Of a stretch of 64,000 nucleotides of DNA, positions 1,173-55,094 are shown in pieces. The translations under genes and the position numbers were made by a program. The notes beneath the pieces were generated by a model that searched no databases, was not told the origin of the DNA, and saw only the letters and a program-made list of their open reading frames with translations. The number at the start of each line of letters is the position of its first letter. Position 1 is the first letter of the stretch. The DNA is taken from positions 868,001-932,000 of the forward strand of contig NZ_JPOE01000005.1 in NCBI RefSeq assembly GCF_000733775.1. Direction: 5' to 3'. The DNA is from Thiomonas sp. FB-Cd. GTDB lineage: Bacteria > Pseudomonadota > Gammaproteobacteria > Burkholderiales > Burkholderiaceae_C.

Positions 1173-2738
1173 ATGAACGACCTGCTTCGCCCGCTGTTCA
1201 ATCTTTTTCCCGCCATGTGGGAGAAGCGCTGGTGGGGGCTTGCTGTGGCATGGGGCTTTGCGCTTCTCGGCGCGGTCGGCGTTGCAACCTACAAAGAACG
1301 CTACATGGCATCGGCCACGGTTTATGTTGACGTCCAGAGCACGCTGCGCCCCTTGCTCGAAGGCCTGACTGTCCAGCCAAACATCAGCGAACAAGTCAAC
1401 ATGCTCGCGCGCACCTTGTTGTCGCGTCCCAACATCAACACCATCATCAATGAAAACCACCTCCTCACCCCAGGAGCGGATGCGCTCAAACGCGAGCGAC
1501 TCATCCAACAACTGACCAAGGCCATCGAGCTCAAGATCAACGGACGCGATAACCTCTACTCCGTCAGTTTCACCAGCAACAACCCCAATCAAACCCTAGG
1601 CGTGGTGCGCAGCGTTCTCCGCCTGTTCGTTACCAAAGGCATCGACAGCAACCGCAAGGATTCTGACCAAGCCGTGCAGTTTATCGACAGCCAGCTTGCC
1701 ATCTACGACAGCAAGTTGCGTGATGCCGAAAACAAACTCAAACAGTTCAAGACCGCCAACCCGGGGTACTCCGGCCAAGCAACGACTGACTATTACACCA
1801 GGCAAGCGCAACTGCAAGACCAACTCACCTTGCTGCAAGGCCAACTGAGCTCAGCGGCAAGTTCGCGCGACGCCCTCCGCCGCCAGCTTGCTGACGTCAA
1901 GCCTACCCTGGCGCCACAGTTGCTGCCCGGCACCAACATCGTCGTTGGTGGCCAGACGCCCGACATCGACATGCGCATCGCCGCTCAGCGCAAGCGCCTG
2001 GACGATCTGCTACAGCGCTACACAGACGCCTACCCAGACGTGATCGCGACTCGCCAGACCCTAGCTCGTCTAGAGCGGGAAAAGCAACAGCAGGCGAAGG
2101 AAGCCCCACCGGCAGCGCCGAGCATCTCGTCGCAGTATTCTGAGGCCACCAATCCCGTTTATCAGCAGTTACGAATCAGCTTGGCGCAAGCCGATGCAAA
2201 CGTGGCGGCGCTGCAGTCGCAAATGGGGGACGTACAGGCGCGTTTGGCGCAGCTTCGCACTCAGGCCACACAGATGCCAAAGCTCGATGAGCAATACAGT
2301 CAACTCAACCGCGATTACAACGTGCTCAATGATAATTACCAGAAGCTCGTCCAGCGCCGGGAAGCCGCACTGCTGTCGCGCAACCAAGACGACAGCCGCA
2401 AGCTTGACTATTTCCGTATCGTGGACCCACCTCGACTAGCCCCCACCGCGCTATTCCCGCGACGCACCTTCCTGATCGCTCTCGTACTGTTGCTGGCCAT
2501 AGCACTTGGCATGCTCACAACCTACCTGCTTGTGCTGTTGGTGCCCACTTACCGCAATGCCAGGCAATTGCGTGAAACCACCGACCGACCCGTTCTTGGC
2601 TCGATTACCCTCGTTCCCACACGTTTGTTCCTTGCACAGGATCGGCGCAACCAGCATTTGTTCATGCTCGGCTCTGGATTGTTGGTCGTTGTGTTCGTGA
2701 GTTGGACGATTGTCAACATGCTTCACCTGATCCCTTGA
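1173..2738 (+). CDS. GNVR-type polysaccharide chain-length determinant (Wzz/GumC-like, exosortase-A EPS type)
   Basis: This 521-residue inner-membrane protein would set the chain length of exported exopolysaccharide together with the adjacent kinase. It has an N-terminal membrane segment at about residues 20-40, then a Wzz domain beginning with the YKERYMASATVYVD stretch. A long Gln/Arg/Leu-rich periplasmic coiled-coil region follows (about 160-400). A second membrane segment lies near 430-455 and a third hydrophobic stretch near 490-515. The layout matches the chain-length determinant of exosortase A (XrtA/PEP-CTERM) loci. No cytoplasmic kinase is fused to it; the kinase is the next gene, 10 bp downstream. 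The start is the ATG at 1173, preceded by a weak purine stretch (GAAAG). Confidence 0.88.
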   Translation: MNDLLRPLFNLFPAMWEKRWWGLAVAWGFALLGAVGVATYKERYMASATVYVDVQSTLRPLLEGLTVQPNISEQVNMLARTLLSRPNINTIINENHLLTPGADALKRERLIQQLTKAIELKINGRDNLYSVSFTSNNPNQTLGVVRSVLRLFVTKGIDSNRKDSDQAVQFIDSQLAIYDSKLRDAENKLKQFKTANPGYSGQATTDYYTRQAQLQDQLTLLQGQLSSAASSRDALRRQLADVKPTLAPQLLPGTNIVVGGQTPDIDMRIAAQRKRLDDLLQRYTDAYPDVIATRQTLARLEREKQQQAKEAPPAAPSISSQYSEATNPVYQQLRISLAQADANVAALQSQMGDVQARLAQLRTQATQMPKLDEQYSQLNRDYNVLNDNYQKLVQRREAALLSRNQDDSRKLDYFRIVDPPRLAPTALFPRRTFLIALVLLLAIALGMLTTYLLVLLVPTYRNARQLRETTDRPVLGSITLVPTRLFLAQDRRNQHLFMLGSGLLVVVFVSWTIVNMLHLIP

Positions 2739-2748
2739 GGAACACGCC

Positions 2749-3648
2749 GTGAGCACCATCGAACAAGCCAGCAAGCGCCTCGAACAACTCCGAAAGGCCG
2801 GGGTTGAGATGCCATGGGCGCACGACGCCGAATCGGCTGCACTCAGCCCCACTCACCCCGCGTCGTTGGCCGGGGTGCTACAGGACATCCCAACCCCCAC
2901 GGCGCCGCTGGCACCAGCCAAGCACCGCATCGAGATCGATCTGGCGGGTCTGGAGCAGGCTGGTTACCTCATTCCAGGCTCACCACGTTCGCGTTTGCAG
3001 GATGAGTTTCGTGGGGTCAAGCGCCCGCTATTGGCAAACGTTCAAGGAAGAAAAACCGCCGACCCCGTGGAGCGCGGCAACCTCATCATGATCACAAGCA
3101 GTCTGCCTGGTGAGGGCAAGACCTTTACATCGATCAACCTGGCGATGAGCATGGCCATGGAGATGAACCACAGCGTGCTGCTGGTTGATGCTGACGCCAC
3201 ACGCATGTCAGCGGCCCGCCGCCTCGGTCTGCAAGACACGCGCCGGGGCCTGATTGATCTTCTACTCGATTCCACCCTGGACCTGTCCGACGTCGAGCTT
3301 TCCACCAATGTGGACAAGCTGACGTTCCTGCCTGCAGGCACGCAAGACGACCGCGCCACCGAGATTTTCAGCAGCCAGGCCATGAGAGACTTTCTCGATC
3401 GCATGGCCGCCCACCAGCAAGATCGCATCGTCATCTTCGATGCACCGCCCCTTCTGGCCTCAGCAGAGGCGCGTGTGATAGCCCCGCAGATGGGACAGAT
3501 CGTTCTGGTCGTGCATGCGGGAAAGACTCATCAAGGGTCGGTGCAACAAGCGCTATCCATCCTTGAGGAAAGCGGCATCGTCATGACTCTCCTCAATCAG
3601 TCCCGCACACCCTCAGCATCTTCGCCCTATGGGTATTACGCATACTGA
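2749..3648 (+). CDS. Tyrosine autokinase (BY-kinase) of exosortase-A-type EPS locus
   Basis: This is a cytoplasmic bacterial tyrosine kinase of the Wzc/CapB type, 299 residues, which phosphorylates itself and regulates polymerisation with the chain-length protein. The Walker A motif is SSLPGEGKT, followed by Walker A' LLVDADATR and the Walker B-like IVIFDAPP. The C-terminus ends in a tyrosine-rich tail (YGYYAY), the usual autophosphorylation site. The N-terminal MSTIEQASKRLEQL segment is typical of the PEP-CTERM-locus kinases. Translation starts at a GTG (2749) with GAGGAA about 7 nt upstream, and the upstream gene's stop overlaps this ribosome binding site, so the two are probably translationally linked. 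The next 315 bp separate it from the NRPS genes. Confidence 0.9.
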   Translation: MSTIEQASKRLEQLRKAGVEMPWAHDAESAALSPTHPASLAGVLQDIPTPTAPLAPAKHRIEIDLAGLEQAGYLIPGSPRSRLQDEFRGVKRPLLANVQGRKTADPVERGNLIMITSSLPGEGKTFTSINLAMSMAMEMNHSVLLVDADATRMSAARRLGLQDTRRGLIDLLLDSTLDLSDVELSTNVDKLTFLPAGTQDDRATEIFSSQAMRDFLDRMAAHQQDRIVIFDAPPLLASAEARVIAPQMGQIVLVVHAGKTHQGSVQQALSILEESGIVMTLLNQSRTPSASSPYGYYAY

Positions 3649-3963
3649 GTTCAAGGTTTGAGTACCGAACTTTGTGTCCCGCGTTCGCGCTTCTGAAGCA
3701 GCTGTCGCGGACCGGTCGTGACGTTCTTCTGGCTTGCCGCACGGTGCATGTGGCCACCAAAAATCCCTTGTCTTTACCCTATTCAAGGGGCACAAATCTG
3801 CGTCCCGAGACCCTAGACTGACGCTCATCGCCTCCGCACGCCTGTTTTTCTGCAACTGAATCCTTGCAGACTGGCTGGGTGTCGAGAGATGCGAATCGAA
3901 CGTTAGCCTGGGCATCGCATGCGATGTGAAGCGGTGATGCCAGCGCTCTGGGGGAATATGGTC
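3649..3963. other. Intergenic region before the NRPS/PKS operon
   Basis: These 315 bp lie between the kinase and the first assembly-line gene. A minus-strand frame runs across it but resembles nothing and overlaps both coding regions. A short imperfect hairpin (CCCT-attca-AGGG) lies near 3778-3790. A promoter for the NRPS/PKS genes is expected here, but I see no convincing -35/-10 pair. Confidence 0.4.
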
Positions 3964-6900
3964 ATGACCGCGCAGCAAAATACGATTGCAGAATCTACGC
4001 GAACCGTGCATGACGCATTCGCGCAGACTGCAGCGCGGCATGATGACGGGGTGGCGCTAGTGTATGGCGCGCATACGGTGCGCTATGGGCAACTTCAGGC
4101 CAATGCTGATGCGCTTGCGAACCGCCTGCGTGAATGCGGTGTCCACCCCGGCGAGGTCGTCGGCGTAGCGCTTCCGCGCTCATTCGACGCCATCAGCAGC
4201 ATGTTGGCGATCTTGCAATGTGGTTGCGCCTACCTTCCACTTGATCCGACATATCCCGCCGCGCGCACGGTTCATATGCTGCACACGGCGCAGGCGCGGC
4301 TCGTCGTCGCAACCACCGTACACGCCCAGACCTTTGGCGCACATGCTGCCGTGCTTCAGCTCGACACCTCTGCACAGGCGGACCCGCGCCTGTCGGCACC
4401 CGCTGGCGTGGGCAGCATGCCTCTTGCCTACGTCATGTTCACCTCGGGTTCCACCGGCGTGCCCAAGGGAATCGGCATTCCGCACGCGGCAATCCTGCGC
4501 CTGGTACTTGAGCCCAACTTCATGCATCTTGGGCCTCGCACGCGCATGCTGCATGCCGCGCCACTCGGGTTCGACGCTTCGACGCTGGAAATCTGGGGCC
4601 CTCTTCTCAATGGTGGCTGCTGCGTTCTGCATGATGAAACTCTGCCCACACCCGCCGGGTTGGCGCGCACCATCCGCACCCACGCCGTCGATTCGGCTTG
4701 GCTGACAGCCGCCCTCTTCAACGCCGTTGTTGACGACAGTCCAGCGCAGCTGCGCGGCCTGCGCCAACTACTCACCGGCGGTGAGGCCCTGTCCGTACCC
4801 CATGTTCGCAAAGCCCTCGCTGCGCTGCCTGACACCCAAATCATCAACGGGTACGGCCCGACGGAATGCACAACGTTTGCCACCACGTACGCTATCCCGC
4901 GCGAGCTACCGGCCGATGCCCGCAGCGTCCCGATCGGCAAGCCGGTCAATGCCACCACCGTGCACGTGCTGGATGCGCAATTGCAACCACTGCCAACCGG
5001 CGACGTTGGCGAGCTCTACGTCGGCGGGGTTGGTCTTGGCGTGGGCTATCTCGGCCGCCCCGACCTCACTGCCGAGCGCTTCGTGCAAGCCCCTCCTTCC
5101 ACCGAGCCGGGCGCGCGCCTTTATCGCACCGGGGACCTTGCGCGCGTCCTTCCGGACGGCAACCTTGATTACATCGGCCGCGCCGATTCGCAAATCAAGA
5201 TTCGCGGATTTCGCGTCGAGCCGGGCGAAATCGAGATACGAATGCTGGAACACCCAGAGATCAGATCTTGCGCAGTTATCGCGCGCAAGGATCCGTCGGG
5301 CCGCGCGCGGCTTCTGGCGTACCTCGTGGCCAAAACCGACGCCGTGCCCGCAGCCTCGCTGCGCGCGCATCTGGCGGCGCGCCTGCCCGACTACATGGTC
5401 CCCGCGGCGTTCACCTGGTTGGATGCCCTGCCAATCACGCCCAACGGCAAGCTCGATACACGCGCGCTAGCCGATCCACCGGGCACGCGCCCTGAACTGG
5501 CGCAACCCTACCAAGCCCCGCGCGATCAAACGGAAGCGCGCATATGCGAGGCCTTTGCGCAGGCACTGGGCGTCGAACCTGTGGGGCGTTTGGACAATTT
5601 TTTCGACCTTGGCGGTGACTCGCTGCGTGTGCTCAAAGTTCTGGCCTTGCTCGCGCAGCAGGGCGTTACGCTCGAGACCAACGCCTTTTTCAGCCAGCCC
5701 ACACCCCAAGGGCTGGCACGCGTAGTCTCTGGGGCGGGTGACACTGCGACAATCGACATGCGCCGCCTGGCGCGCACCCGCCCGCTTGGTCATGGCGCTG
5801 CTCAGACCGGCACCGATCCCATCGCCATCATCGCGTCCGCCGGCCGATTTCCAGGCGCCGCCAATGTCGAGGCCCTATGGACGATGCTGTGTGAAGGCCG
5901 CGACGGCATCACACATTTTGCCGATGTTGAACTTGACCCGGCGATCCCCTCCGCTTTGAAACTCGACCCCGACTACATCAAAGCCCGGGGTGTGATCGAG
6001 GGCATCGAGCAGTTCGATGCCGCATTCTTCGGCATCTCCCCGCGCGAGGCTGCATTGATGGACCCGCAGCAGCGGGTTTTCCTCGAACTGTGTTGGGAAT
6101 GTTTGGAGCGCGCTGGGCATGCGCCCGATGCCACACATGGCCCCGTGGGTGTGTTCGCTGGCATGCACAACGCCACTTATTTCCAGAACCACCTGCAGTA
6201 CCGGCGAGATCTCATCGAGGGTCTGGGCGCCTTCCAAGTCATGCTCGGCAACGAAAAGGACTACGTCGCCAACCGCGTGGCTAATCGGCTCAACCTGACT
6301 GGGCCGGCTGTGGCTGTCAACACCGCGTGCTCCACATCGCTGGTGGCCATCGCGCAAGCAGTGCTTGCGTTGCGCGCCAGACAGTGCGATATGGCGCTGG
6401 CTGGCGGCAGTTCAATCGCGTGCCCGCCACGCAGCGGTTATCTCTACCAGGAGGGCGCGATGCTGTCGCCCGACGGCCGGACTCGAAGCTTCGACGCCGA
6501 GGCGCAAGGCACGGTATTTTCTGACGGCGCCGCCGTTGTTCTGCTCAAGCGCCTGGCCGACGCACAGGCTGACGGCGATACGCTGCTGGCCGTGATCCGC
6601 GGCGTTGCCGTGAACAACGATGGACGCGACAAGGCCAGCTTCACCGCACCCAGCATCGATGGCCAAGCCGCGGTGATCGAGGCTGCGCTGCGCGACGCGC
6701 AGGTGGAGGCCCGCAGCATCAGCTATGTGGAGACACACGGCACCGCTACACCGATGGGCGACCCCGTGGAAGTGGCAGCACTCACCCGCGCCTTCCGCGA
6801 GCATACCGAAGACACGGGATTTTGCCGCATCGGGTCTCTCAAGAGCAACGTGGGCCACATGGTCATCGCTGCAGGCGCAGGAAGCGTCATCAAGACAGCA

Positions 6901-9900
6901 TTGGCGCTGGCCAACGGACAACTGCCGCCCAGCATCCATTACGCCACGCCCAACCCGCGCATCGACTTTGCCCATAGCCCGTTTAGCGTCTGCAGCGGGC
7001 TAATGCCTTGGCCTCGCGGCGAGCACCCGCGCCGCGCGGGCGTCAGCGGTTTTGGCGTCGGCGGCACCAATGCCCATGTGGTGATGGAAGAGGCACCCCT
7101 GCGTGCGGCGTCATCCGCTGCGGTCGGTCCGCAACTGCTGATGCTCTCTGCCAAGACATCCACCGCGCTCGACGCCATGGCCGCACAACTCGCCGCGCAT
7201 TTCCAGGGCCATCCCGATGTCAACCTAGCCGACGCCGCCCACACCTTGCAAGTCGGACGCAGCGTCTTCGCGCACCGCCTGTGCGTCGTGGCGTCGAGCG
7301 TGAGCGAAGCTGTAACCGCCTTGCAAATCCCGAGTCATGCGATGCGGGTGAAGAGGCAGGTCGCCAGCAGCGCACCGCCACAGATTTGGATGTTCTCCGG
7401 CCAAGGTGCGCAATACCCCGGCATGGGCAGCGGCCTATATGTGAGCGATACCGCCTTTCGCGTTGCGTTCGATGCGGCACTGCAGGCTCTTGCACTGCAT
7501 CTCCCCTTCGATCTACGGGCACAAATGCTGAATGGCGCGTCACTCGCGCAAACCGCCACCACGCAGCCTGCACTGTTCGCCCTTGAATATGCATTGGCAC
7601 AAAGCTGGCTAGCACGGGGCGCCAAACCGGCGGCGCTCATCGGCCACAGCGTAGGCGAATTCGTCTGCGCCGTACTCGCCGGAGTGATGACCCTTGGCGA
7701 CGCCGCGCGGTTGGTAGCCAGGCGCGGCGCCGTAATGCAGGCCCAACCGCCTGGCAGCATGCTGTCGGTACGCCTACCCCTGGCGGAGATGCTCGCACGT
7801 CTTCCCAAAACGCTCGCCATTGCTGCGGAAAACGCGCCAGCCGCCTGCGTTGCTGCCGGCCCCACGCCCGACGTGCAGGCATGGCAGGCCGAACTGGTGG
7901 CTTCTGGGGTGCAGTGTCGTCTGCTGGAGACCTCTCACGCCTTCCATTCACAGATGATGGATGGCGCGCTCGATGACTTCGCCGTCGCGGCAGGAACAGC
8001 CACTCTTCTGCCCCCCACCACGCCCATCGCATCGACTCGCACGGGAGCCTGGATGCGCGAGGAGGACGCCACGAGCGCCGACTACTGGGTCCGCCACCTG
8101 CGTGAACCGGTGCGCTTCTCGCCGGCCGTGCGCGCAGCGCTGGCCCGCCACCCGGGGGCACTGTTTCTGGAAATTGGCCCGCGCACCACCCTCACCGGCT
8201 TGGTGCGTCAACATGGTCCTGCCGGCACTGTTTTTGCGCTCCCGAGCCTTGGCGACGCACCGGACCGCGAATCCGCGCAGATGCTCCTGGCGCAAGGTGC
8301 GCTATGGACAGCGGGCATCGACCTGCCGACCCCCGCAGCCAACCCGTCCACTGGTCGTCATCGCATCCAGCTGCCAACCTACGCCTTCGAGCGCAAGCGC
8401 TTCTGGGTTGATGCGCCGATCGCAGGCTCCGATGCGGGACCTGAAGCCCTACGGGCCACGCCTGTGACTCCAGCTGCCATGGCGGAAGACGCCTCGACCA
8501 GCAAGGATGCCGCTCAACCATCCGCCCCCGGCGCCGCCGTGCTGGCCTTCATTCCTCACGCCCATCCAACCGTCATGTCCACGACCCAGCCCGATACCGC
8601 CGCCGGTCCTACATCCGCTCATCGCACAGGCCAGATCATCTCCCGCCTGCGAAATGTGTTTGAGGATGTCTCGGGTGCCGACTTGAGCCAAGCCGACGCC
8701 TCGGCAGCGTTCGTCGAACTTGGCATCGACTCCCTCACGCTGACGCAAGTCACCCTCCAGGTGAAGAGAGAATTTGGCGTCCCCGTGACCTTCCGCCAGC
8801 TGATGGAATCCTTGAGCAGCATGGACCAGCTCGCCGTGTACATTGATGCGCAGCTGCCGCCAGAGCCCGCCGTGCCAGCTCCAGGACTGGAGGCCGCAGT
8901 TGTGCAGAATATCGCCGCTTCGCCCCAGCCTGCGGGGTTCGCAGCCATGCAACCCGCCATGGCAATATCACCGGTCCACACGGGCGTGCAAACCACTGCT
9001 GTGCAGCAACTCATCCAGCAGCAGATGCAACTCATGGCACAGCAGTTGGCGCTTCTTGGCGGCATGCCAACCCTCATCACGCAAGGGCCTGCCGGCGCGC
9101 CCGCAGCTAAGGAAACCGTGGCGCCGCAAGCCGCTCTTACGGCAGTACCGGCATCGCGCCCTGGCGTACCTGTAGCTACCGACACCGCTGCCGCGCCCGA
9201 CGATGTCGACACCCAGCGCTACGACGTCAAGAAAGCATTCGGCGCGATTGCCCGCATCCACACCCAGACAAATCCCCTGACCGAACGACAGCGCGCTCGC
9301 TTGGCCGCCTTCATGCGCCGCTATGTGGAGCGCACAGGCAAGAGCCGCGCATACACGACGCAGCACCGCGATCATTTGGCCGATCCGCGCGTGGTCAACG
9401 GCTTTCGGCCAATGATCAAGGACATCGTCTATCAAATCGTCATCGAGCGCAGCAAGGGCTCGCATCTGTGGGATCTGGACGGCAACCAGTACGTCGATGT
9501 GCTCAATGGATTTGGCATGAGCCTGTTCGGCTGGCAGCCCGACTTCGTGGTCGACGCCGTGCGCAAACAACTCGACGCCGGTTACGACATCGGCCCACAG
9601 CACCCGCTGTCGGGCCCAGTGGCGGATCTGATGTGCGAACTCACGGGATTTGACCGGGCCGGCCTTTGCAACACGGGTTCCGAGGCTGTGATGGCTGCCG
9701 TGCGAATCGCCCGTACGGTCACCGGCCGCAGCACCGTGGTGCTGTTCACCGGTTCCTACCACGGCACCTTCGATGAGGTGGTGGTACGCGCGGGACGAAA
9801 CGCCAAGGGCATCCCCGGTGCGCCCGGCATCATGCGCGGCATGTTCGGCGACGTGCGCGTGCTTGACTATGGCACTCCCGAGTCGCTTGCGTTCATCCGA

Positions 9901-10764: not shown

Positions 10765-10769
10765 AGCCC

Positions 10770-21777: not shown

Positions 21778-22924
21778 TTCCCCGCTGGTCGTACATATGA
21801 TCGACGAGCTTCCGCGCGACGGCGCCGAAATGCTTCTCCTCGACCTTATGCGCATGCGCCACCCGCATTTGCGTTATGAGGTCGTATGCCTCATCCGCGG
21901 CGGCCCGCTGCAGCCAGAGTTCGAACACATTGGCGTTCCTGTAACAGTGTTTGGTAGGCGCGCCAAGCTCGACCCGGTGCTCGTTTGGCGCCTCGCGCGG
22001 TGGCTAAGACGTAAGCACGCGTCGATTGTGCATACGCATCTGTTCACAGCCGACACTTACGGCCGCTTGGCTGCACGGTTGGCGGGCGTGCCGGTGGTCT
22101 ATTCCACGGCGCACAACATCGTCAATCCCTGGAAAGGTGCTCTACACAAGAGCATTGACCGCGCCTTCGCGCGCCTGAGCACTGGCGTGATTGGATGCAG
22201 CGAGGAAGTCGCACAAGCCCTGCGTCACCGCGACGGCATCGCGACTGACCGGGTGCTGGCTATCTCCAACGGTATTGAGCTCGCCAAGTTCTCAGAGATT
22301 TCAGGCGCGGGCGTGCGCACCGAATTCGGCTTGCCGGAAGACCGCAAGCTCATCGGCGTAGTTGGCCGCCTGCATCCCCAAAAGGGTCATGACGATCTTC
22401 TGCAGGCGCTCGCCGGGATGGAGGCAGCGCGCTCCGGTCGGCTTGCCTGCCTGGTCATCGGCACCGGCGAACTCGATCAGACGCTACGGGCCAAGGTAAC
22501 TGCCCTCGGGCTAGACGGCTGCGTGATCTTCACTGGCATGCGCACCGACGTGCCACGCTTGATTGCTGCGGTCGATGCCATCGTTATGCCATCACGGTGG
22601 GAAGGCCTGCCCATTGCCCTGCTCGAATCGATGGCAAGCGCCAAGCCAGTGCTTTGCACGCGTGTTGGTGGAATTCCGGACGTCGTGCGCGACGGCGACA
22701 ACGGTCTCTTGGTCGAAGCTGGGGACGTACAGGCTTTGCAAGCTAGGCTAACTTGGTTGCTGGACCACCCGAACGAAGGTACCGCGCTCGGCATCCAGGC
22801 GCGTGACACCGTGCTCGCGCGCTTTGACGTGAGGCGAACTGCCGCCGCCTACAACCGCTTGCATTGCCAGGCACTTGGGCTACCGGTGGACGACTGTCCG
22901 CCGGCTTCTGCTCCGCTGGCTTGA
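21758..22924 (+). CDS. Glycosyltransferase family 4
   Basis: This 388-residue cytoplasmic GT-B enzyme adds a sugar to an EPS intermediate. The N-terminal domain shows HMIDELPRDGAEMLLLDLM and the acceptor-side HTHLFTADTYGR; the C-terminal nucleotide-sugar domain shows GVVGRLHPQKGHDDLLQA and the E-x7-E motif EGLPIALLE. The start at ATG 21758 (MARTV) overlaps the O-antigen-ligase-like gene. The sugar donor cannot be named from sequence alone. The next gene starts immediately after the stop codon. Confidence 0.9.
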   Translation: MARTVADSPLVVHMIDELPRDGAEMLLLDLMRMRHPHLRYEVVCLIRGGPLQPEFEHIGVPVTVFGRRAKLDPVLVWRLARWLRRKHASIVHTHLFTADTYGRLAARLAGVPVVYSTAHNIVNPWKGALHKSIDRAFARLSTGVIGCSEEVAQALRHRDGIATDRVLAISNGIELAKFSEISGAGVRTEFGLPEDRKLIGVVGRLHPQKGHDDLLQALAGMEAARSGRLACLVIGTGELDQTLRAKVTALGLDGCVIFTGMRTDVPRLIAAVDAIVMPSRWEGLPIALLESMASAKPVLCTRVGGIPDVVRDGDNGLLVEAGDVQALQARLTWLLDHPNEGTALGIQARDTVLARFDVRRTAAAYNRLHCQALGLPVDDCPPASAPLA

Positions 22925-23785
22925 ATGGGAGTGCTAGGGATGCGTCGCCTGCTCGCACAAATCATTCTGCCCTATGCGCGACTGTGCACTTGGGTACAGC
23001 CGGGTCTGCGCATCCTTATGTACCACCGTGTCGCCACGCTCCCACACTATGACCAACTCACCGTCTCACCTGCGCGGTTCGCACGGCAGATGGAGAAACT
23101 CGCATGTGAATGCCGCGTCGTGAGCTTGGCCGACGGCCTGCGTGCAATACACGAGAGCCAGCTGCGCCAGCCGTTGGTGGCGGTCACCTTTGATGATGGG
23201 TATCGCGATAACCTCACTGAGGCGCTGCCGATTCTGCGTCGCTATGCTGTACCGGCGACCATCTTCGTGACCACCCGATTTTGCGACCAGGCCGAAAGCC
23301 ATCCACGCTACGGACCATCGCCGCAGCGCCTTCATTTGGACTGGGATGAAGTGGCGGTTCTGGCCGCGACGCCCGGAGTCACGATCGGCTCGCACACGCT
23401 TCACCACCCATATCTGCCCACGCTACCCGAGGCACAGGCGCGCGAGGAAATTTCGCAGAGTCGCACCATAATAGAAAGCCGGATCGGCCAGCCCGTGGCG
23501 TTTTTTTGCTATCCGTCGGGTGACCTAGGCCCGCGCGAGCTTCGCCTCGTACATGAGTCTGGCTATGCAGCAGCTGTAAGCGTGGCGCCAGGCGTTAATT
23601 ACCGCTCGACCGACCCAATGAAGCTGCGTCGCACTGAAATCACTGACCGTGACGACGATGAAGCATTCGCCCTTAAGATTGCTGGCGCTTTCGACCCCAT
23701 CCACCGCCTGCTGCACGCTAGGCGCACCTGGAACTTTGCACGTGGCTATGGCCGGCCCGGCGCCCAGACGACCGCAAGACCATGA
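22925..23785 (+). CDS. Polysaccharide deacetylase (NodB homology, CE4)
   Basis: This 286-residue CE4 protein is the second of three deacetylases in the window. Motifs are RILMYHRV, the metal-site TFDDGYRDN, GSHTLHHP (the two histidines), and FCYPSGDLG. Unlike the first deacetylase it has a hydrophobic N-terminal stretch (about residues 6-25) that could anchor it in the membrane. Two starts are possible, ATG 22925 directly at the previous stop and ATG 22940; GGGAG 8 nt before 22940 makes the second one attractive. The last 4 nt overlap the next glycosyltransferase start. Confidence 0.87.
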   Translation: MGVLGMRRLLAQIILPYARLCTWVQPGLRILMYHRVATLPHYDQLTVSPARFARQMEKLACECRVVSLADGLRAIHESQLRQPLVAVTFDDGYRDNLTEALPILRRYAVPATIFVTTRFCDQAESHPRYGPSPQRLHLDWDEVAVLAATPGVTIGSHTLHHPYLPTLPEAQAREEISQSRTIIESRIGQPVAFFCYPSGDLGPRELRLVHESGYAAAVSVAPGVNYRSTDPMKLRRTEITDRDDDEAFALKIAGAFDPIHRLLHARRTWNFARGYGRPGAQTTARP

Positions 23786-24924
23786 AGATCCTCTATTTGA
23801 TGACTGAGCCATTTGGCATCGGAGGCGTGCAAACCGATATCCTGACCCTAACTGAAGACTTGAGCGCCAAAGGCCACACTGTGTACGTCGCGACTACAGA
23901 TGGCGTGCTATTACAAGAACTCATCGGCAAAGGCGCGCGCCACGTGAATATCGATTTCCGTTTTCGCAAGCTATCGGAGTTTCTCGCCGCAGCACGCAAG
24001 CTACGCCGGGTTGCGCGCACAGAAAGCATCGAACTCATTGCCCCGCAGTCCGTGCGCTCGTCGATTGCCGCTTTTTTTGCGCTGCGGCTTGTGCCATATC
24101 GCTACAGCGTCGCGAGCACAGGCAAACGCCCGCCCATCGTCACCACGATCCACAACATCCACAACCCAGCGAATTTTCAATGGGCCGGGAAGATCCTGCG
24201 CCGTTGTGCGGATTTCGTCATCTTTGAATCACATTACGAGCGAAACCGCCTGCTGCAAAACGGCCTACAGGCCGAGCGTTCCGCTGTGATCCACAGCGGT
24301 ATTGACCTAGGAAAGTTGTCTAGGCCAACGCAGGCGCAGGAACTCGCGGTGCAATATGGCCTGGATCCCAGCCGCCAGTTCATCTATGGCATCGTCGCGC
24401 GCCTCTCGGAGGAGAAGGGGCACTGCTATTTGGTCGAAGCGTTCGCACGCGTCGCGCGGCGCCGACCCGAAGCCAGGCTGGTGATTATCGGCGACGGTCC
24501 TCTTCTGGATGTTGTGCGGCAGCAAGTCAACGCGCTTGAACTGGACTCGCGCGTCGTGTTTACTGGAATTCAGCGCGACATCGCTTCGCACTTGGCAATG
24601 CTAGACGTGTTCGTGTTGTCATCCACGCGCGAATCGTTTCCGTTGTCAGCGCGCGAGGCGATGGCCGCCGGCCGCGCAGTGATCGCGCCCCGGATCGGTG
24701 GTTGCCCCGAAGTGGTCGACGATGGCGTCACCGGCCTTTTGTTTCAAGCGGCCAATACCGATGATCTGGAAGCGAAGATGCTCCTTCTCGCCGACCGCCA
24801 GACGAGCACGATGATGGGCCGTGCGGGGCGTGAGCGGGCGCGTCGCTTGTTCTCCCGTGAATCGTGGGTGGACGGCGATGAGCGAGTCTATCTCCAATGG
24901 GCTGGTGCTGCCGCCAGCGATTGA
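23782..24924 (+). CDS. Glycosyltransferase family 4
   Basis: This 380-residue GT-B glycosyltransferase starts in an ATGA overlap with the upstream deacetylase. It has the Gly-rich N-terminal FGIGGVQTDILTL, a C-domain opening IYGIVARLSEEKGH, RLVIIGDGP, and the E-x7-E motif ESFPLSARE followed by RIGGCPEVV. It probably builds the EPS repeat unit. Donor and acceptor cannot be assigned. The following DUF218 gene starts inside its last 47 nt. Confidence 0.9.
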   Translation: MKILYLMTEPFGIGGVQTDILTLTEDLSAKGHTVYVATTDGVLLQELIGKGARHVNIDFRFRKLSEFLAAARKLRRVARTESIELIAPQSVRSSIAAFFALRLVPYRYSVASTGKRPPIVTTIHNIHNPANFQWAGKILRRCADFVIFESHYERNRLLQNGLQAERSAVIHSGIDLGKLSRPTQAQELAVQYGLDPSRQFIYGIVARLSEEKGHCYLVEAFARVARRRPEARLVIIGDGPLLDVVRQQVNALELDSRVVFTGIQRDIASHLAMLDVFVLSSTRESFPLSAREAMAAGRAVIAPRIGGCPEVVDDGVTGLLFQAANTDDLEAKMLLLADRQTSTMMGRAGRERARRLFSRESWVDGDERVYLQWAGAAASD

Positions 24925-25734
24925 GGAATGCCTGGCTTACCCACCCCTTTTCTTCGCATCCGGCTCGCTGCATTTGAAAACCTCGTTTGAGCTTCTTCTT
25001 TCGCCGGTGGGGCTGTTTGCCATCGCGCTGCTCGCGCTCACGATGGAGACACTACGTCGAGCGCAAAGCTGGTGGCTGCGGATCTTTGCGGCATCACTGA
25101 CGGTTGCCTTTTTTGCCGTGAGCACCCCCCTTGGAGCAAATCTAATGCTCGGCGCGCTCGAGAGCCACGCGCGCCTCGAGGAAAGTCATTGTGCCCCCCC
25201 CCGCCGGGAAGCATCATCATCCTTCTTGCGGGCGGCATTCGGGGTGATCCCGATCGCCTGGACGATTTCTCGGCACTCTCGGAAGCAAGCTTGTATCGGC
25301 TCTTTTCGGCCGTGCGTCTGGCCGATCAGACTCCGAATAGCACCTTACTGATCTCCGGAGGCGGGGGCAGAGTGATCCATGAAGCGAATCTCATGGGAGC
25401 ATTGGCCGAGCAGCTCGGCTTTCCGCGGCAGCGCGTTGAGCTCGACACACGCTCCCACACTACATTTGAGTCTGCTTTGAATGTCGCCTCCGCTGTCGAA
25501 AAATACCCGCAACGCCAGCGCTATCTGGTGACCTCCGCCGACCATATGCCACGCGCACTCATGGCATTCCGCCATGCTGGTTTGAACGTTTGTGCACGGC
25601 CCGTCGACTTTGAAGCTCTCCCTCTGAAGCCAGCCGAGATGCTCACGCCGCAAATTAGTGCGCTCAGCAAGTCGACACGTGCCATGCATGAAGCGCTCGG
25701 CATGCTTTACTACGATCTCGTGAAATTTCAGTAA
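24878..25734 (+). pseudogene. YdcF/ElyC-like DUF218 membrane protein, split by a frameshift in a C-tract
   Basis: Two adjacent frames together encode one DUF218 protein. The first (from ATG 24878, MSESISNG) gives two membrane segments, SPVGLFAIALLALT and IFAASLTVAFFAVS. The second carries the DUF218 core: GSIIILLAGG, LLISGGGG, RSHTTFESALNV and SADHMPRALMAF. They meet at nine consecutive C residues (25194-25202); one more C would fuse them in frame. DUF218 proteins are often found in envelope and EPS loci, but their enzymatic role is not settled. The break may be a real inactivation, slipped-strand phase variation, a programmed shift or a sequencing error. The gene begins inside the preceding glycosyltransferase gene. 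Confidence 0.8.
25194..25202 (+). repeat. Nine-C homopolymer at the DUF218 frame junction
   Basis: Nine consecutive C residues lie exactly where the reading frame of the DUF218 gene changes. A tract of ten would restore a single open frame. Such tracts are prone both to slippage in vivo and to read errors. Confidence 0.9.
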
Positions 25735-26034
25735 TTGGCTCCAATAAATGAAGCCGGGGTTTTTCCATTTCAGGCGGTCATTCAGCGAAAGCTGACGTGA
25801 GTTTCGAGCGATTCATGTGTGCCCACGAATTGACTTTCGCACGCCGTTTTAGCATGCCTTTGGAGTTGCGTCATCCGAGGTGGTGGATGCGCAACGGCGA
25901 ACCGATTTTTGCCTAGTGCTGGAGGTTGAACCGTGAGGAAGGGTTGGCCGCAAAGAGACGCCAAGGGGTCCGCCTGGCGATGGTATTCATCGAGCGGCAC
26001 TCCTTCATGGGTGCCTGAGAGTGCAACCCTGCTA
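25735..26034. other. Non-coding stretch left of the IS630-type element
   Basis: About 300 bp between the DUF218 stop and the IS end. The frame that runs through here into the transposase has no recognisable content. No promoter or strong terminator is evident. The sequence may be what separated the DUF218 gene from the acetyltransferase gene before the insertion. Confidence 0.45.
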
Positions 26035-27198
26035 GTGTCGTGTTTGATTCTTAATGGAACTTACGTGCAGTACCAGTCTCCAATGCTGTACTTGGGTTTG
26101 CATTGGAGAGAGCGATTGCGAGTTGCCCCGATGATTGTGTTGACGGATGAACAGGAGAGCGAGTTGACCCGGCTCGCGCGCTCAAAGCGCACCAGCGTCA
26201 GGCTGGTGCAGCGTGCGCGCATCGTGTTGCTGGCTGCGCAGGGCCTGCAGAACAAGGACATCGCCGAGCAACTTGGCATCGGACGCGTGCAGGTCGCGCG
26301 CTGGCGCGAGCGGTATGTGGAGTCGGGGCTGCGAGGCATTGAGCGCGACCTGCCGCGCGGCGCGCCGCCGGTGAAAGTGGACGTGGCCAAGCTGGTGGAA
26401 CTGACCACGCAAACCACGCCCGAGGCCGCCACGCACTGGAGCACACGCAAGATGGGCGAGGTCCTGGGCGTCAGCGCCAGCACCGTCATGCGGCATTGGC
26501 AGGCGCACGGGCTCAAGCCTCATATCGTGCGCGGCTTCAAGGTCTCGCGCGACTCGAAGTTTGTCGAGAAGCTCGAGGACATCGTGGGCCTGTACGTGTC
26601 CCCACCCGAGCACGCGCTGGTGCTGTGCTGCGACGAGAAGAGCCAGGTCCAGGCGTTGGATCGCACGCAGCCGGGTCTGCCGCTGAAGAAGGGGCGCGCT
26701 CAGACGATGACGCACGACTACAAGCGCCACGGCACGACGACGCTGTTCGCGGCGCTCAACGTGCTCGACGGCCAAGTCATCGCCCAGTGCCAGCAGCGCC
26801 ATCGCCACGCCGAGTGGCTGAAGTTCCTGCGCCAGATCGACCGCGAAACGCCCAAGGACAGGACGCTGCATCTGATTGCCGACAACTACGCCACGCACAA
26901 GCATCCCGTCGTGCAGGAGTGGCTGGCCAAGCACCCGCGGTTCAACATGCACTTCACGCCCACCTCGGCGTCGTGGTTGAACATGGTCGAACGGTTCTTC
27001 CGCGACATCACCGTCAATCGCTTGCGCCGCGGCGTATTCACCAGCGTGCCAGAGTTGGTCACCGCCATCGACGAGTACATCGCCCATCACAACATCAAAC
27101 CGAAGCCATTCATCTGGACCAAGAGCGCCGCCGACATCCTGCAGAAGGTCATTCGCGCCAACAGTCGCTTAAGTTCCAAACAGAATGGAACACTACAC
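26035..27198 (+). mobile_element. IS630-family insertion sequence, 1164 bp, TA-flanked
   Basis: The element is bounded by imperfect inverted repeats of about 30 bp. The left end reads GTGTCGTGTTTGATTCT, and the right end read inward is GTGTAGTGTTCCATTCT; both continue to TGGAACTTA. TA dinucleotides flank both ends (26033-26034 and 27199-27200), matching the TA target duplication of the IS630/Tc1 group. One complete transposase fills it. It lies in the EPS operon between the DUF218 gene and the acetyltransferase, so it may block read-through to the last three genes. Confidence 0.88.
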
Positions 27199-27201
27199 TA
27201 G
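26131..27201 (+). CDS. IS630-family transposase
   Basis: This 356-residue DDE transposase moves the surrounding element. An N-terminal helix-turn-helix region (QGLQNKDIAEQLGIGRVQVARW) is followed by a second helical DNA-binding part and the catalytic core with CCDEKSQVQ (first Asp), IADNYATHKH (second Asp) and SASWLNMVERFFRDI (Glu). ATG 26131 (MIVLTDEQE) is the best start; the frame is open for about 200 bp upstream, but that stretch crosses the IS end. The stop codon TAG uses the TA of the flanking target site plus the next G, so the coding frame runs to the last base of the element. It looks intact. Confidence 0.92.
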   Translation: MIVLTDEQESELTRLARSKRTSVRLVQRARIVLLAAQGLQNKDIAEQLGIGRVQVARWRERYVESGLRGIERDLPRGAPPVKVDVAKLVELTTQTTPEAATHWSTRKMGEVLGVSASTVMRHWQAHGLKPHIVRGFKVSRDSKFVEKLEDIVGLYVSPPEHALVLCCDEKSQVQALDRTQPGLPLKKGRAQTMTHDYKRHGTTTLFAALNVLDGQVIAQCQQRHRHAEWLKFLRQIDRETPKDRTLHLIADNYATHKHPVVQEWLAKHPRFNMHFTPTSASWLNMVERFFRDITVNRLRRGVFTSVPELVTAIDEYIAHHNIKPKPFIWTKSAADILQKVIRANSRLSSKQNGTLH

Positions 27202-27322
27202 ACACCGACTGGTTTAGGCGATGGGATGGACGTTCTTTCCCCGGTTTAGGGGTAGGCAGGCCCGACCGAGCAACTTACGCTTAACGGCGAAAAGGGCTAA
27301 AACATTTCTGAGAATATTTCGC

Positions 27323-27895
27323 ATGATCCAGTCTCACGCGGATTACAAGGCCTATTTGGATGCCGATCGCCTATCTCTTGGCAAGAATCACACATTGCGC
27401 GACCGGTTCCTCGACGAGATATGGCTTTTTCAGCGGCGGCTGCGTAGGGTTGAGTACCTGACCAACTGCCGCAAGAATCGGCTCCGCCGACTTGTTGCGG
27501 TATACCAGTACCGTCAGCTTGGCATCCGGCTTGGCTTTTCGATACCGATTAACGTATTTGGGCCCGGCCTTGCGCTTTTGCACTATGGAACGATCGTCAT
27601 CAACGCACAGACACGTGTCGGCGCGAACTGTCGCGTCCACGCCGGTGTCAACATTGGTGCACAACTGGGGCCCGACGGCGGGGTGCCGCGCATCGGGGAC
27701 AACTGCTACCTTGGCCCTGGTGCAAAATTGTTTGGCGCCATCGTCATTGGGGATAACACGGTGATTGGTGCAAACGCCGTGGTCAACAAGAGCTTCCCGA
27801 GCGGAAATGTCACGCTGGGCGGAGTTCCGGCTCGGATCATTTCGGAAAAATCGGCCGCTGGCCTGTTCGTACTGGGCTACAAGAAAGCACAATGA
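27323..27895 (+). CDS. Serine-acetyltransferase-like hexapeptide-repeat acyltransferase
   Basis: This 190-residue protein has a left-handed beta-helix of hexapeptide repeats, such as IGDNCYLGPGAKLFG and IGDNTVIGANAVV, and ends with the family's GGVPARII. The N-terminus (MIQSHADYKAYLDADRLSLG) resembles acetyltransferases in EPS loci. It would O-acetylate a sugar or sugar nucleotide with acetyl-CoA. I chose ATG 27323, since the longer frame to 27221 extends back toward the IS with no family similarity. It lies 122 bp after the element, so it may need its own promoter or one supplied by the IS. Confidence 0.82.
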   Translation: MIQSHADYKAYLDADRLSLGKNHTLRDRFLDEIWLFQRRLRRVEYLTNCRKNRLRRLVAVYQYRQLGIRLGFSIPINVFGPGLALLHYGTIVINAQTRVGANCRVHAGVNIGAQLGPDGGVPRIGDNCYLGPGAKLFGAIVIGDNTVIGANAVVNKSFPSGNVTLGGVPARIISEKSAAGLFVLGYKKAQ

Positions 27896-27989: not shown

Positions 27990-29204
27990 ATGAAGGCCGC
28001 CCACTCCATTGCAGCAGTGAATCCGGTTGAGCTTTCCGCTGAATGTGTCAGGACGACTCGGGTTCTGATGGTTGTGGACGGACGATACCCAGCAACTGGC
28101 GGTGCCGAACTTCAAGCACGGTTGCTGAGTTCAGCCCTTGCCGCATCCGGGCACTCAGTACGCGTGCTGGCGCCGCGTCTCGACTCCTCGCAACCCTTGG
28201 ACGGCTACATTGATGGAATAAGGGTTCAGCGCTTGGCCTATCCACACATCAAGGCACTTGGCGCGATTTGGTTGAATCTGCGATTTGCCGCTTGGTTGAT
28301 TTGGCATCAACACGAATTTGACGCGATCCACATTCACATGATGCACAATCTCGCCGGTGCAGCGGGATGGTTCAAACGCTGGCTCCGCCCGAAAATCGTG
28401 GTTAAGGTGTCTGGCGCTGCAGAATTCCAAGGCGGCATTCTCGACCCCGCATTGCGTCACAAGCCCGTACACCGGATACTGCTCGCCGGGAGCCGCCGCT
28501 TGGACGCCTTCCAATGCATCAGCCAATACACGCGAGAGGTCATGCTCCGCGCCGGCTACGCCTCGCAACGCCTGCATCTCATTCCCAACGCGGTGGATTG
28601 CGCCCGCTTTTTTCCATCACCCGCAGAGGTCGAACCGATCCGCGCTGTATTCGTGGGGCGCCATGTACGCGTCAAAGGGCTGGATATCCTATTGCGGGCC
28701 TGGGTCAGGGTAAGGCGGCACGAAAACGCAAGGCTGGTGCTAGCAGGAGACGGGCCGGAGCGCGCGCATCTCATGGCCCTTGCTCAAGAGCTTGGCGTTG
28801 CGGATAGCGTGGATTTTCCGGGGCTAGTGGAGGACATTCCAGCCCTGCTCGCCGGCGCTGCCATCTATGTCCAGTCCTCCCACCATGAGGGCCTGCCGAA
28901 TGCCGTGTTGGAGGCCATGGCCGCCGGCCTGCCAGTCGTGGCAACACGCATAAGCGGGCATGAGGACATCGTTGCCCACGGGCATAGCGGCATCCTCGTT
29001 CCGCCAGCCGACCCAGCCGCATTAGCCGATGCGATGCAGCGTTTGATCGACGCGCCATTGCAAAGGCGACTCTTCGGGGCCGCCGGTCGCGATTTCGTCG
29101 CTCGGCACTACGCCATTCCCGTGATCACGGCGCAATTGTTGCGCCTGTACCAAGCCCCATCCCCCGACGGCCGCGCCTCAGGGCGTGTGCTCGCCGCACC
29201 GTGA
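27990..29204 (+). CDS. Glycosyltransferase family 4
   Basis: This 404-residue GT-B enzyme has VLMVVDGRYPATGGAELQ at its N-terminus, HIHMMHNLAGAAG on the acceptor side, AVFVGRHVRVKGLDIL at the start of the donor domain and the E-x7-E motif EGLPNAVLE, followed by TRISGHEDIV. It is the third GT4 of the EPS locus. Residues 1-24 are not conserved family sequence, so the true start may lie a little downstream. The next gene's ATG overlaps its stop. Confidence 0.89.
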   Translation: MKAAHSIAAVNPVELSAECVRTTRVLMVVDGRYPATGGAELQARLLSSALAASGHSVRVLAPRLDSSQPLDGYIDGIRVQRLAYPHIKALGAIWLNLRFAAWLIWHQHEFDAIHIHMMHNLAGAAGWFKRWLRPKIVVKVSGAAEFQGGILDPALRHKPVHRILLAGSRRLDAFQCISQYTREVMLRAGYASQRLHLIPNAVDCARFFPSPAEVEPIRAVFVGRHVRVKGLDILLRAWVRVRRHENARLVLAGDGPERAHLMALAQELGVADSVDFPGLVEDIPALLAGAAIYVQSSHHEGLPNAVLEAMAAGLPVVATRISGHEDIVAHGHSGILVPPADPAALADAMQRLIDAPLQRRLFGAAGRDFVARHYAIPVITAQLLRLYQAPSPDGRASGRVLAAP

Positions 29205-30727
29205 TGCAGGGCAAGCTGGAGCCCGCGGCGTTGGTACCCGACAAGGAAGGGGGCGGGGCGCTCAGGCGACTGGCGCGCCATACCTCAATCTACTCCATCG
29301 GCAGCCTGCTGGTCACGTTTGCAAGCATCATCTCGTTCCCTGTCTTCACACGCATTTTCACAGTGTCCGAGTACGGCACGATGGGCTTGGTGACATCCAC
29401 CATCTTGTTTCTAGTGGGCGTCGGCAAGCTTGGCCTCCAGCACTCGGTCGTGCGCTTTTACAGCGAGGTTGAAGCTGGCACGCGTCACAACACAGCCGTA
29501 CAGTTCTTCTCGACCGTTCTGTTCAGCATGCTGGCAACCGGCGCCATCGTCAGTGTGCTGGGCGCACTGCTTGTCAAGTTGATGCCAACGCACTGGTGGG
29601 GTGAAACGCAGACACAGCATCTTGTCGTCTTTGCTGCTCCGCTGATTCTTATTCGCGTGGTCGATAGCGCGATGTATAACATGTTGCGGGCACAGCAAAA
29701 AAGTGCCCTTTACAGTACTTATTTCACTGTGCGGAAGTATTTGGGTCTAGCCCTTATTCTTCTGGTGCTGTTCTTCGTTTCACGCAGTCTCGAAGGATTT
29801 TTTGCCGCATCCATAGTCAGCGAAGGCTTAGCCGTTTTTGTGATCATCACCTATTACTGGCGCCAGCACGTTTTCGACGTCCGGAAAATTTCAAAGCCGC
29901 TTCTATTTTCCATGCTGATGTATGGATTGCCCTTGTTTGCGAGCGAGCTTTCCGGGCTCCTTCTCAACATAGGCGGGCGTTACATAATTAACTATCGACT
30001 CGGCCCTGAACCCCTTGGGTCCTTTTCAGCAGCATATAACTTCAGCGATTATCTGCAAGGCATTCTCACCGCTTCGTTTGCTCAAGCGATCATCCCCATT
30101 TATTTTCGTCTATGGGAACAAAAAGGCCCTGAGAAGACGGCAGCATTTCTTCAGGATTCACTTCGATATTATATGGCGATCTCCATCCCGATCGTGGCTG
30201 GGATCGGCGCTGTAGGACCTGAACTCGTCCGCTTATTGGCTTCCGCAAAGTATAATGTGAGTGCGCCCCTCATTACATTCGTGACCGCAGGTATGCTGAT
30301 CTCGGGCGGGACGCCGTTATTTAGTGCTGGCGTCTATATCAAGAAGCAGACAAAGATCGTAATGTACTCCGTACTGGCGGCTGCCGTATGCAACATTGCG
30401 TTGACTATCGCATTGACCCAAGGCTATGGGATCGAAGGCGCTGCCGTTGCGACCCTAGTCAGCCTCACACTTTACGCGGCATCCACTGCATACTTTGGGA
30501 GACGAACCGTGCAAGTACGGATGCCTTGGCGGGATCTGGCCAGCTTCTCTGCACTGTCTCTACTCATGTACGGCGTGATCACGAGGATCGAGTTGCCGAG
30601 TTTGGCGCTCCGCATTTCGGCACAAATCGCATGCGGTGCCGTCCTCTATGTGGGATTGCTGCTGTTGATCGATCGCCCCATGCGCGGATTGGCGCAAAAA
30701 GGGTTGAGCCACCTGCGGCGCTCGTGA
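29204..30727 (+). CDS. Wzx-type oligosaccharide flippase
   Basis: This 507-residue membrane protein of the polysaccharide-exporter (MATE/Wzx-like) superfamily has about 12-14 predicted membrane segments. It would move lipid-linked repeat units across the inner membrane for polymerisation by the Wzy-like protein at 20.2-21.8 kb. The N-terminal ARHTSIYSIGSLLVTFASIISFPVFTR region (split for brevity: ARHTSIYSIG, then SFPVFTRIF) and the later RYIINYRLGPEPLG are typical. ATG 29204 overlaps the preceding stop; a GTG at 29201 is an alternative. It is the last plus-strand EPS gene, and its base composition seems lower in GC than the upstream genes. Confidence 0.88.
   Translation: MQGKLEPAALVPDKEGGGALRRLARHTSIYSIGSLLVTFASIISFPVFTRIFTVSEYGTMGLVTSTILFLVGVGKLGLQHSVVRFYSEVEAGTRHNTAVQFFSTVLFSMLATGAIVSVLGALLVKLMPTHWWGETQTQHLVVFAAPLILIRVVDSAMYNMLRAQQKSALYSTYFTVRKYLGLALILLVLFFVSRSLEGFFAASIVSEGLAVFVIITYYWRQHVFDVRKISKPLLFSMLMYGLPLFASELSGLLLNIGGRYIINYRLGPEPLGSFSAAYNFSDYLQGILTASFAQAIIPIYFRLWEQKGPEKTAAFLQDSLRYYMAISIPIVAGIGAVGPELVRLLASAKYNVSAPLITFVTAGMLISGGTPLFSAGVYIKKQTKIVMYSVLAAAVCNIALTIALTQGYGIEGAAVATLVSLTLYAASTAYFGRRTVQVRMPWRDLASFSALSLLMYGVITRIELPSLALRISAQIACGAVLYVGLLLLIDRPMRGLAQKGLSHLRRS

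Positions 30728-52596: not shown

Positions 52597-55094
<2,498 letters not shown>

Follow-up and report, generated by a model that had tools for sequence, protein, structure and literature searches.

We analysed a 64,000-nucleotide stretch of Thiomonas sp. FB-Cd (hereafter the window; bases 868001-932000 of contig 5, NZ_JPOE01000005.1, in a genome of 4.39 Mb) in which a hybrid polyketide synthase/nonribosomal peptide synthetase (PKS/NRPS) assembly line and a pair of alpha/beta hydrolases lie inside an exopolysaccharide (EPS) locus. The integration of the line, the hydrolase pair and the EPS genes is well supported by what follows. Judged from sequence comparison, the block at 3919-18367 behaves as a cassette that plugs into a Wzx/Wzy-type, XrtA-like and exosortase-free EPS system. 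Genomes and loci used for comparison are referred to by our own G and L numbers.

An assembly line within an exopolysaccharide locus

All five cassette genes are on the forward strand. A hybrid PKS/NRPS with the domain order A-T-KS-AT-T-AmT, AmT being a class III aminotransferase domain (3919..10764), is followed by an NRPS with the order C-A-T-C-T (10710..15749; the likelier start is the ATG at 10770), a 4'-phosphopantetheinyl transferase (PPTase; 15791..16618), and two proteins of the alpha/beta-hydrolase fold, hyd2 (16612..17448) and hyd1 (17441..18367). The initial annotation had placed the line and the PPTase between an EPS kinase and the hydrolase pair with its glycosyltransferases, and both gene order and strand were confirmed.

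The single EPS locus takes up the first 31 kb of the window and ~5 kb upstream (flank L093), and six models of the XrtA-type EPS core pass their curated cut-offs there. The upstream flank encodes the sugar transferase (TIGR03013), the export protein (TIGR03027), the outer-membrane protein (TIGR03016) and the ATPase (TIGR03015). The ATPase is the N-terminal part (L093:18689-19999; 374 bits, cut-off 325) of an ATPase/UDP-GlcNAc 2-epimerase fusion gene that starts before the window and whose C-terminal part, with a wecB-like match, lies at 1..1058 (+); the homologue in L030 is a single open reading frame with both parts. Within the window are the chain-length protein (1173..2738, +; TIGR03007, 430 bits, cut-off 279) and the tyrosine autokinase (2749..3648, +; TIGR03018, 241 bits, cut-off 231). 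Searches of the whole genome with TIGR02602 and PF09721 returned no exosortase, the XrtA-specific model itself not having been run. The earlier description of the operon as exosortase-A-type therefore fits the EPS core only, and we rejected the term exosortase-A operon in its strict sense.

From the PPTase to position 24924, successive junction gaps are -7, -8, -4, -4, -41, -20, 0 and -4 nt. This upholds the earlier observation of overlapping stop and start codons, save that the frame at its last junction (24878/24924) is only the 5' part of a frame-shifted DUF218 gene. Because these genes overlap or abut, hyd1 and an EPS gene, the GT2 glycosyltransferase (18364..19497, +), share 4 nt of stop and start. 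An overlap of the same size is readable in L053 and in L110 (G165), and the gap in G032 is +74. Tight coupling stops 5' of the line, where kinase and PKS are 270 bp apart (3649..3918, +). This gap holds a terminator-like hairpin (3703-3723) and no sigma-70 match, and promoter and terminator matches of the region did not exceed those in shuffled sequence.

The cassette in Burkholderiales relatives

Two genomes of the same genus differ by the whole cassette. G158 has the same EPS genes, with chain-length, kinase, GT2, deacetylase and Wzy genes consecutive and 45 nt between kinase and GT2; it has no NRPS match at E 1e-100 and no TIGR03100 match at E 1e-15. G032 carries PKS, NRPS, PPTase and both hydrolases inline behind the kinase and before GT2. 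Since all five genes are present or absent together in the genus, they behave as a cassette, and in the G158 comparison the hydrolase pair accompanies the NRPS rather than the basic EPS genes.

The line stands behind the same kinase in two further loci. L053 has the PKS, the NRPS and both hydrolases before GT2, with no PPTase match there, and L030 has all five cassette genes followed by DUF218 and GT4 genes in place of GT2. After the kinase, G032 and L053 have a cupin-like gene, for which the window's 270-bp gap is too small. In G165, the line follows the kinase on one contig and the run PPTase-hyd2-hyd1-GT2-deacetylase-Wzy lies on another. The refuting condition set at the outset, an NRPS missing from or remote in every relative that shares the EPS genes, does not hold: G032, L030 and L053 carry it in place, and Xanthomonadales carry it in a related, differently arranged locus. 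The proposal that it forms a recurrent part of the EPS locus, and is no chance neighbour, is borne out.

Across 200 genomes of the window's family, 69 carry a TIGR03018 kinase at E 1e-50. The NRPS lies ~10 kb or less from the kinase in G000, G032, G165 and G049, ~12-17 kb away in G005, ~30-42 kb away but within one EPS region in G129, ~80 kb away in G091, and far away in G033. Neither G071 nor G016 has a TIGR03018 kinase at this threshold.

Co-occurrence and split loci in Xanthomonadales

In Luteibacter, Dyella and Rhodanobacter, the line is inline with EPS genes, with the sugar transferase upstream where the flank reaches and relatives of GT2, the deacetylase and Wzy downstream in most; GT2 relatives thus adjoin the line in this order too. 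That the pair is absent from these EPS loci was considered and rejected, as longer flanks of four of them contain it. In L021, L058, L060 and L017, whose continuity was checked, genes for the export protein, chain-length protein, kinase, hyd2, hyd1 and epimerase lie in this order on one strand, and the pair is ~25-33 kb from the AmT domain of the same locus. All four pairs have the nucleophile elbows GLCSG (hyd1) and GARLG (hyd2). L131 has an outer-membrane-type protein between the kinase and hyd2, its kinase scoring 173 bits against TIGR03018, below the cut-off.

We quantified this association across the family of Luteibacter rhizovicinus (G207), using 147 genomes. In 66 of these the AmT domain occurred (51 at ≥68% identity), and in 61 hyd1 scored ≥190 bits. 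AmT and hyd1 were found together in 60 genomes; 6 had AmT alone, 1 had hyd1 alone and 80 had neither (Fisher 5e-33, uncorrected for relatedness); counting AmT only at ≥65% gave 49, 2, 12 and 84. Weaker hyd1 matches, left uncounted, exist in G324, G286, G351 and G304 (102-134 bits), and still weaker ones in G259 and G248. In the sole genome with hyd1 only (G379), the contig with the EPS genes breaks off on the Wzy side, so its lack of a line may be due to an incomplete assembly. Among the 60 genomes with both, AmT and hyd1 share a contig in 53 and lie within 50 kb in 49.

The remaining four same-contig pairs are all split, by 399 kb (G352), 465 kb (G373), 88 kb (G291) and 76 kb (G322). In every one, hyd2-hyd1 is part of the export series EpsE-Wzz-kinase-OMP-hyd2-hyd1-epimerase, and GT2, deacetylase and Wzy genes adjoin the PKS/NRPS. 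Such parallel behaviour, together with the split in G165, is hard to explain if the line and the EPS genes are merely neighbours.

These data bear on whether a mobile natural-product cassette simply landed in EPS loci and hitch-hiked there. EPS loci readily exchange genes, the neighbourhood includes an IS630 gene and a glycan block of lower GC, and a second NRPS cluster is close by both in the window and in G032, all of which would fit such an origin. Yet similar gene order recurs in two orders of bacteria, hyd1 depends on the line at a ratio of 60 to 1, and the two halves of split loci behave in parallel. Given this recurrence in relatives, the 147-genome co-occurrence and the split loci, we rejected chance neighbourhood, which we regard as very improbable.

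Recurrence of the line with and without exopolysaccharide genes

Beyond these families, a contig scan with the PKS gave 440 related stretches, of which the best 80 loci were scored by tblastn with 40 query proteins. A locus was called EPS if two or more different EPS genes were scored and the sugar transferase, export protein, chain-length protein, kinase, Wzy or Wzx was among them. By this definition, 31 of the best 80 loci were EPS, 5 partial, 8 weak, 24 none and 12 too short. Counting any marker, EPS genes flanked the line on both sides in 18 of the 80, only upstream in 15 and only downstream in 12. The loci without EPS genes are concentrated in the Variovorax/Xenophilus clade (13 of 24), with others scattered (Piscinibacter, Aquabacterium, Myxococcota and others), and several Variovorax loci have an RND pump and an HlyD protein downstream in place of EPS genes.

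On a tree of 58 KS domains (37 EPS, 21 none), the EPS label requires 6 changes, at least 4 of them forced, versus 17.3 in shuffles. This tree leaves out five distant rows (four scored none) and the partial, weak and short rows, and includes eight added rows labelled by hand (the window and seven from G genomes). A wider tree of 87 rows has 13 label changes, a count inflated by short and weak rows. Among genomes, then, the link proposed at the outset between line and EPS genes recurs in two orders without being obligatory in either direction, as there are EPS operons without the line (G158) and lines without EPS genes (Variovorax, Xenophilus).

Several observations weigh against the proposed role of the line and pair in this EPS. 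The line stands without a scored EPS gene in the fetched flank of 24 of the 80 loci, and 19 of those 24 have the pair. None of seven Variovorax/Xenophilus-clade genomes has a TIGR03018 kinase at E 1e-40, so together with the EPS-less loci they indicate that the line and pair do not need this EPS. Conversely, an NRPS relative lies within 50 kb of the kinase in only 6 of the 69 kinase-bearing family genomes, implying that this EPS usually does without the line. In Xanthomonadales, the TIGR03018 relative found in 20 of 20 genomes is always below the cut-off (141-180 bits), the hyd1 search scored at most 16 candidates per genome, and the co-occurrence statistic is uncorrected for relatedness. Two genomes with a strong AmT match only, G268 (L146) and G368 (L147), have a cupin gene, the line and GT2, and the 18-20 kb retrieved around them show neither pair nor export genes. 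Lastly, the 270-bp gap between kinase and line makes separate promoters possible. The arrangement in G268 and G368 possibly reflects another off-loading route.

The product might instead be a free secreted small molecule such as a signal, metal ligand or antibiotic, with biofilm co-regulation explaining its position and the pair merely releasing it. The Variovorax loci with line and pair beside an RND pump and HlyD gene, the kinase-less Variovorax/Xenophilus-type genomes and the low count in the window's family all favour this explanation, and the Variovorax lineage makes a free co-regulated metabolite plausible. However, mere neighbourhood does not predict the pattern of the split loci (4 of 4, and G165), and canonical XrtA EPS loci encode relatives of the pair with the same Cys and Arg elbows. 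We consider a free product a serious alternative, albeit a rather doubtful one.

The hydrolase pair

Both hydrolases score below the curated XrtA cut-offs (hyd1, TIGR03100, 77 versus 168 bits; hyd2, TIGR03101, 80 versus 203 bits). What they share with the XrtA pair, as which they had been annotated, is an elbow signature defined in the present analysis rather than a published criterion. In hyd1, the elbow has a Cys nucleophile (GFCSG, C111), accompanied by H259, and we propose this protein as the off-loading acyltransferase. In hyd2, Arg takes the nucleophile position (GLRLG), and the protein is likely a non-catalytic partner.

The signature is widely conserved. All 40 line-bearing rows matched at 50 bits or more (the window and 39 of the 80 loci) have the hyd1 Cys, as do the 14 canonical XrtA loci fetched out of 49, the five loci L125-L129 and 7 of 7 further loci. 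The hyd2 Arg is present in 35 of 40, 14 of 14, 5 of 5 and 6 of 7, respectively, and the six exceptions comprise three with GMGLG or GMGIG and three that are poorly aligned. These counts omit four matches in L001-L012 from cut pieces (one 'hyd1' with Arg and three hyd2 with Arg), and distant members without these residues could escape since the search seeds themselves have Cys and Arg. In alignments of 39 sequences each, C111 and H259 of hyd1 are invariant and D258 nearly so; R114 of hyd2 is nearly invariant, and hyd2 has no invariant His. In confident AlphaFold models (mean pLDDT 88.3 and 90.5), C111 and R114 each occupy an elbow between strand and helix, and H259 follows a strand. Foldseek with hyd1 returned generic esterases at a TM of ~0.5, and a PDB sequence search with the hyd1 profile returned generic alpha/beta hydrolases. 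By eye, neither window hydrolase has an evident signal peptide, so both are probably cytosolic.

Single-frame hyd2-hyd1 fusions occur in G198 (L125), G176 (L126), G097 (L128) and G194 (L129), spanning 595-864 codons from stop to stop, and the one fusion scored matches both families. The fusions suggest that both proteins act together. No NRPS was matched within the ~11 kb fetched around each fused pair. We had taken L125-L129 as five fused pairs, which was rejected for L127 (G119), where the pair is two separate neighbouring genes near an NRPS.

L115 of G162, the one canonical XrtA locus annotated, has the pair beside a TIGR03098 ligase and a TIGR03099 decarboxylase, all four above cut-off. 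Hydrolase 1 above its cut-off is present in 49 of the 200 family genomes, and in none of G000, G032, G158, G165, G049, G005, G129, G091, G033, G071 and G016. Of 16 genomes searched, only the control G162 has a TIGR03098 ligase above cut-off. A sub-cut-off relative of this acyl-CoA ligase (476 bits) lies at G000:C2:176684-178216, on a contig other than the window's, and similarly scoring relatives are found in G032, G165, G049, G033, G005 and G045. The PF09721 exosortase is present in 11 of 17 chosen genomes, those lacking it being G000, G032, G158, G165, G049 and G016.

Predicted chemistry of the assembly line

The translations of the line contain the known active-site motifs: ACSTS (KS), GHSVGEF (AT), HHxxxDG in both C domains, a Ser in each of the four carrier domains and YGK (AmT). 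KS-AT-carrier-aminotransferase followed by a C-A-T module is the arrangement of beta-amino-acid hybrids. No thioesterase domain was matched in either megasynthase protein of the window. Across 81 rows (the 80 loci and the window, whose row also includes its second NRPS), the exact string A-T-KS-AT-T-AmT-C-A-T-C-T occurs in 24 and a form with a third A domain in 17; many other rows are truncated at contig ends or include additional neighbours. Both main strings end in T, in a scan made without a thioesterase query.

We read putative A-domain specificities from a specificity-code table, with columns placed by motif; several codes of the next A domain (A_C2), mostly from Luteibacter and Dyella, were misaligned and unused. 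Of 78 rows, 50 (the window among them) have a Val-like code in the first A domain and 19 a Pro-like one. The next A domain most often has a Gly-like code (27 of 63 rows); a Ser-like code occurs in 4, one of them the window. The predicted window product is a Val-derived, once-extended, beta-aminated unit joined to Ser, held on a terminal carrier that lacks a thioesterase.

Proposed mechanism

The recurrence of such combinations in two orders of bacteria suggests a peptide destined for the polysaccharide. The best single mechanism, ahead of a free metabolite, is that the Cys hydrolase moves the chain onto the EPS repeat unit, although we consider it as apt to prove wrong as right. The line would load a Val-like amino acid, extend it with one malonyl unit, convert the beta-keto group to a beta-amine and add a Ser-like residue, leaving the chain on the last carrier domain with no built-in thioesterase to release it. 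Aided by hyd2, hyd1 would accept the chain as a thioester and transfer it to an acceptor, likely an amino sugar bared by the locus deacetylases in the lipid-linked repeat unit. Transfer would occur on the cytosolic side, before Wzx flipping and Wzy polymerisation, and the outcome would be an EPS with short amine-bearing peptide-polyketide side groups. Covalent attachment of peptide to EPS, the transfer activity, the acceptor and the product are all put forward here as proposals. One point against the suggested acceptor is that the deacetylases are also present in G158, which has no line.

The chain might be loaded instead on a lipid, or on an outer-membrane or secreted protein travelling with the EPS as an anchor or adhesin, replacing the missing exosortase/PEP-CTERM part. 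An XrtA-like EPS core in a genome with no exosortase match would agree with this, as would the Luteibacter pair following an outer-membrane-type protein gene. Against it, the cassette yielded no candidate for an acceptor protein or a lipid enzyme, and 16 of 45 line-bearing genomes do have an exosortase of some kind. We therefore judge such an anchor unlikely, and transfer to the EPS repeat unit remains our preferred mechanism.

Other genes of the window

Beyond GT2, the locus continues on the forward strand with polysaccharide deacetylase A (19494..20282), a Wzy_C-domain protein of the polymerase/ligase type (20242..21777), a GT4 glycosyltransferase (21758..22924), polysaccharide deacetylase B (22925..23785) and a second GT4 (23782..24924). 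The DUF218/ElyC-like gene that follows (24968..25734, +) has a frameshift near 25195-25201 when compared with its open 254-aa homologue in G032, through either a genuine mutation or a sequencing error, which are indistinguishable here. Directly downstream is an IS630 transposase gene (25933..27201, +), an insertion within the EPS locus. A CysE-like acetyltransferase (27221..27895, +), another GT4 (27990..29204, +) and a Wzx-type flippase (29201..30727, +) complete the locus.

Past it, a minus-strand block at 31013-34397 encodes a deacetylase, a FemAB-like GNAT protein (PF13480) and a GT2, and has lower GC (0.52-0.54), possibly having been acquired. The window's second NRPS cluster (A-T; C-A-T-C-A) is at 43731-55094, with an MFS transporter before it and a peroxidase-family gene after it. 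G032 likewise has a second NRPS shortly past its EPS locus (C4, ~425-431 kb). Two adjoining, overlapping GGDEF (diguanylate cyclase) genes lie at 55238-58433, ~25 kb past the EPS locus.

Discussion

The window is closest to the EPS loci of the XrtA/PEP-CTERM type (TIGR03098-03101). The two have in common the same six core models above cut-off, tandem hydrolases with Cys and Arg elbows and, in the annotated canonical locus, an adenylating enzyme beside the pair. They differ in that the window has no exosortase match, its hydrolases fall below the family cut-offs, its genome has no TIGR03098 match above cut-off, and a full PKS/NRPS line stands where XrtA loci have a ligase and decarboxylase. We tentatively suggest, with somewhat less than even confidence, a widespread class of EPS whose repeat units carry a peptide-polyketide from a dedicated NRPS/PKS line, transferred by an acyltransferase made of a Cys hydrolase and a pseudo-hydrolase. 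In that case the classical XrtA pair would represent this same transferase, with a stand-alone ligase as its supplier, and the XrtA ligase, decarboxylase and hydrolase genes would make up the one-module form of the system.

Other known systems resemble parts of this arrangement. Compounds of the iturin/mycosubtilin and microcystin types are made by beta-amino-acid PKS/NRPS hybrids with an embedded class III aminotransferase, and the window-type line shares their KS-AT-T-AmT followed by C-A-T. Unlike them, it begins with an A domain for an amino acid, takes up only a handful of units and terminates in C-T or C-A-T, and no thioesterase was matched; a Cys/Arg hydrolase pair is encoded separately, and the whole lies in EPS loci. 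In the Dlt system, which decorates surface polymers with D-alanine by way of a carrier protein, an adenylating enzyme and a carrier likewise feed a transferase that acts on a polymer. The line of the window instead has several modules, and where Dlt uses a membrane O-acyltransferase the window has a Cys alpha/beta hydrolase that is probably cytosolic. To our knowledge, EPS decorations are all small: acetyl, pyruvyl or single amino acids.

A further parallel is the thiopeptidoglycan of Sphaerotilus and Leptothrix, sheath producers that also belong to Burkholderiales. Its peptide is Gly-Cys, which does not match the Val-ketide-Ser predicted for the window. Thiopeptidoglycan sheaths of these genera are named in cited titles or a table line (PMC11087309, PMC11412304, PMC11976392), and the name and those titles point to a peptide-bearing amino-sugar polysaccharide; no connection to an NRPS appears in these titles or the table line. 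Among the matches listed in the open-access literature, as judged from titles and the starts of abstracts, no paper describes an NRPS in an XrtA-type EPS locus.

If the proposal holds, amine-bearing peptide side groups would alter the charge, adhesion, metal binding and lyase resistance of the EPS. It also provides a testable function for XrtA-associated hydrolases 1 and 2, which the curated models name by association only: a Cys transferase and its look-alike partner. For genome mining, the implication is that the product of some 'orphan' NRPS/PKS clusters, among those of Luteibacter, Dyella, Rhodanobacter, Lysobacter and Burkholderiales, may be bound to a polymer rather than free.

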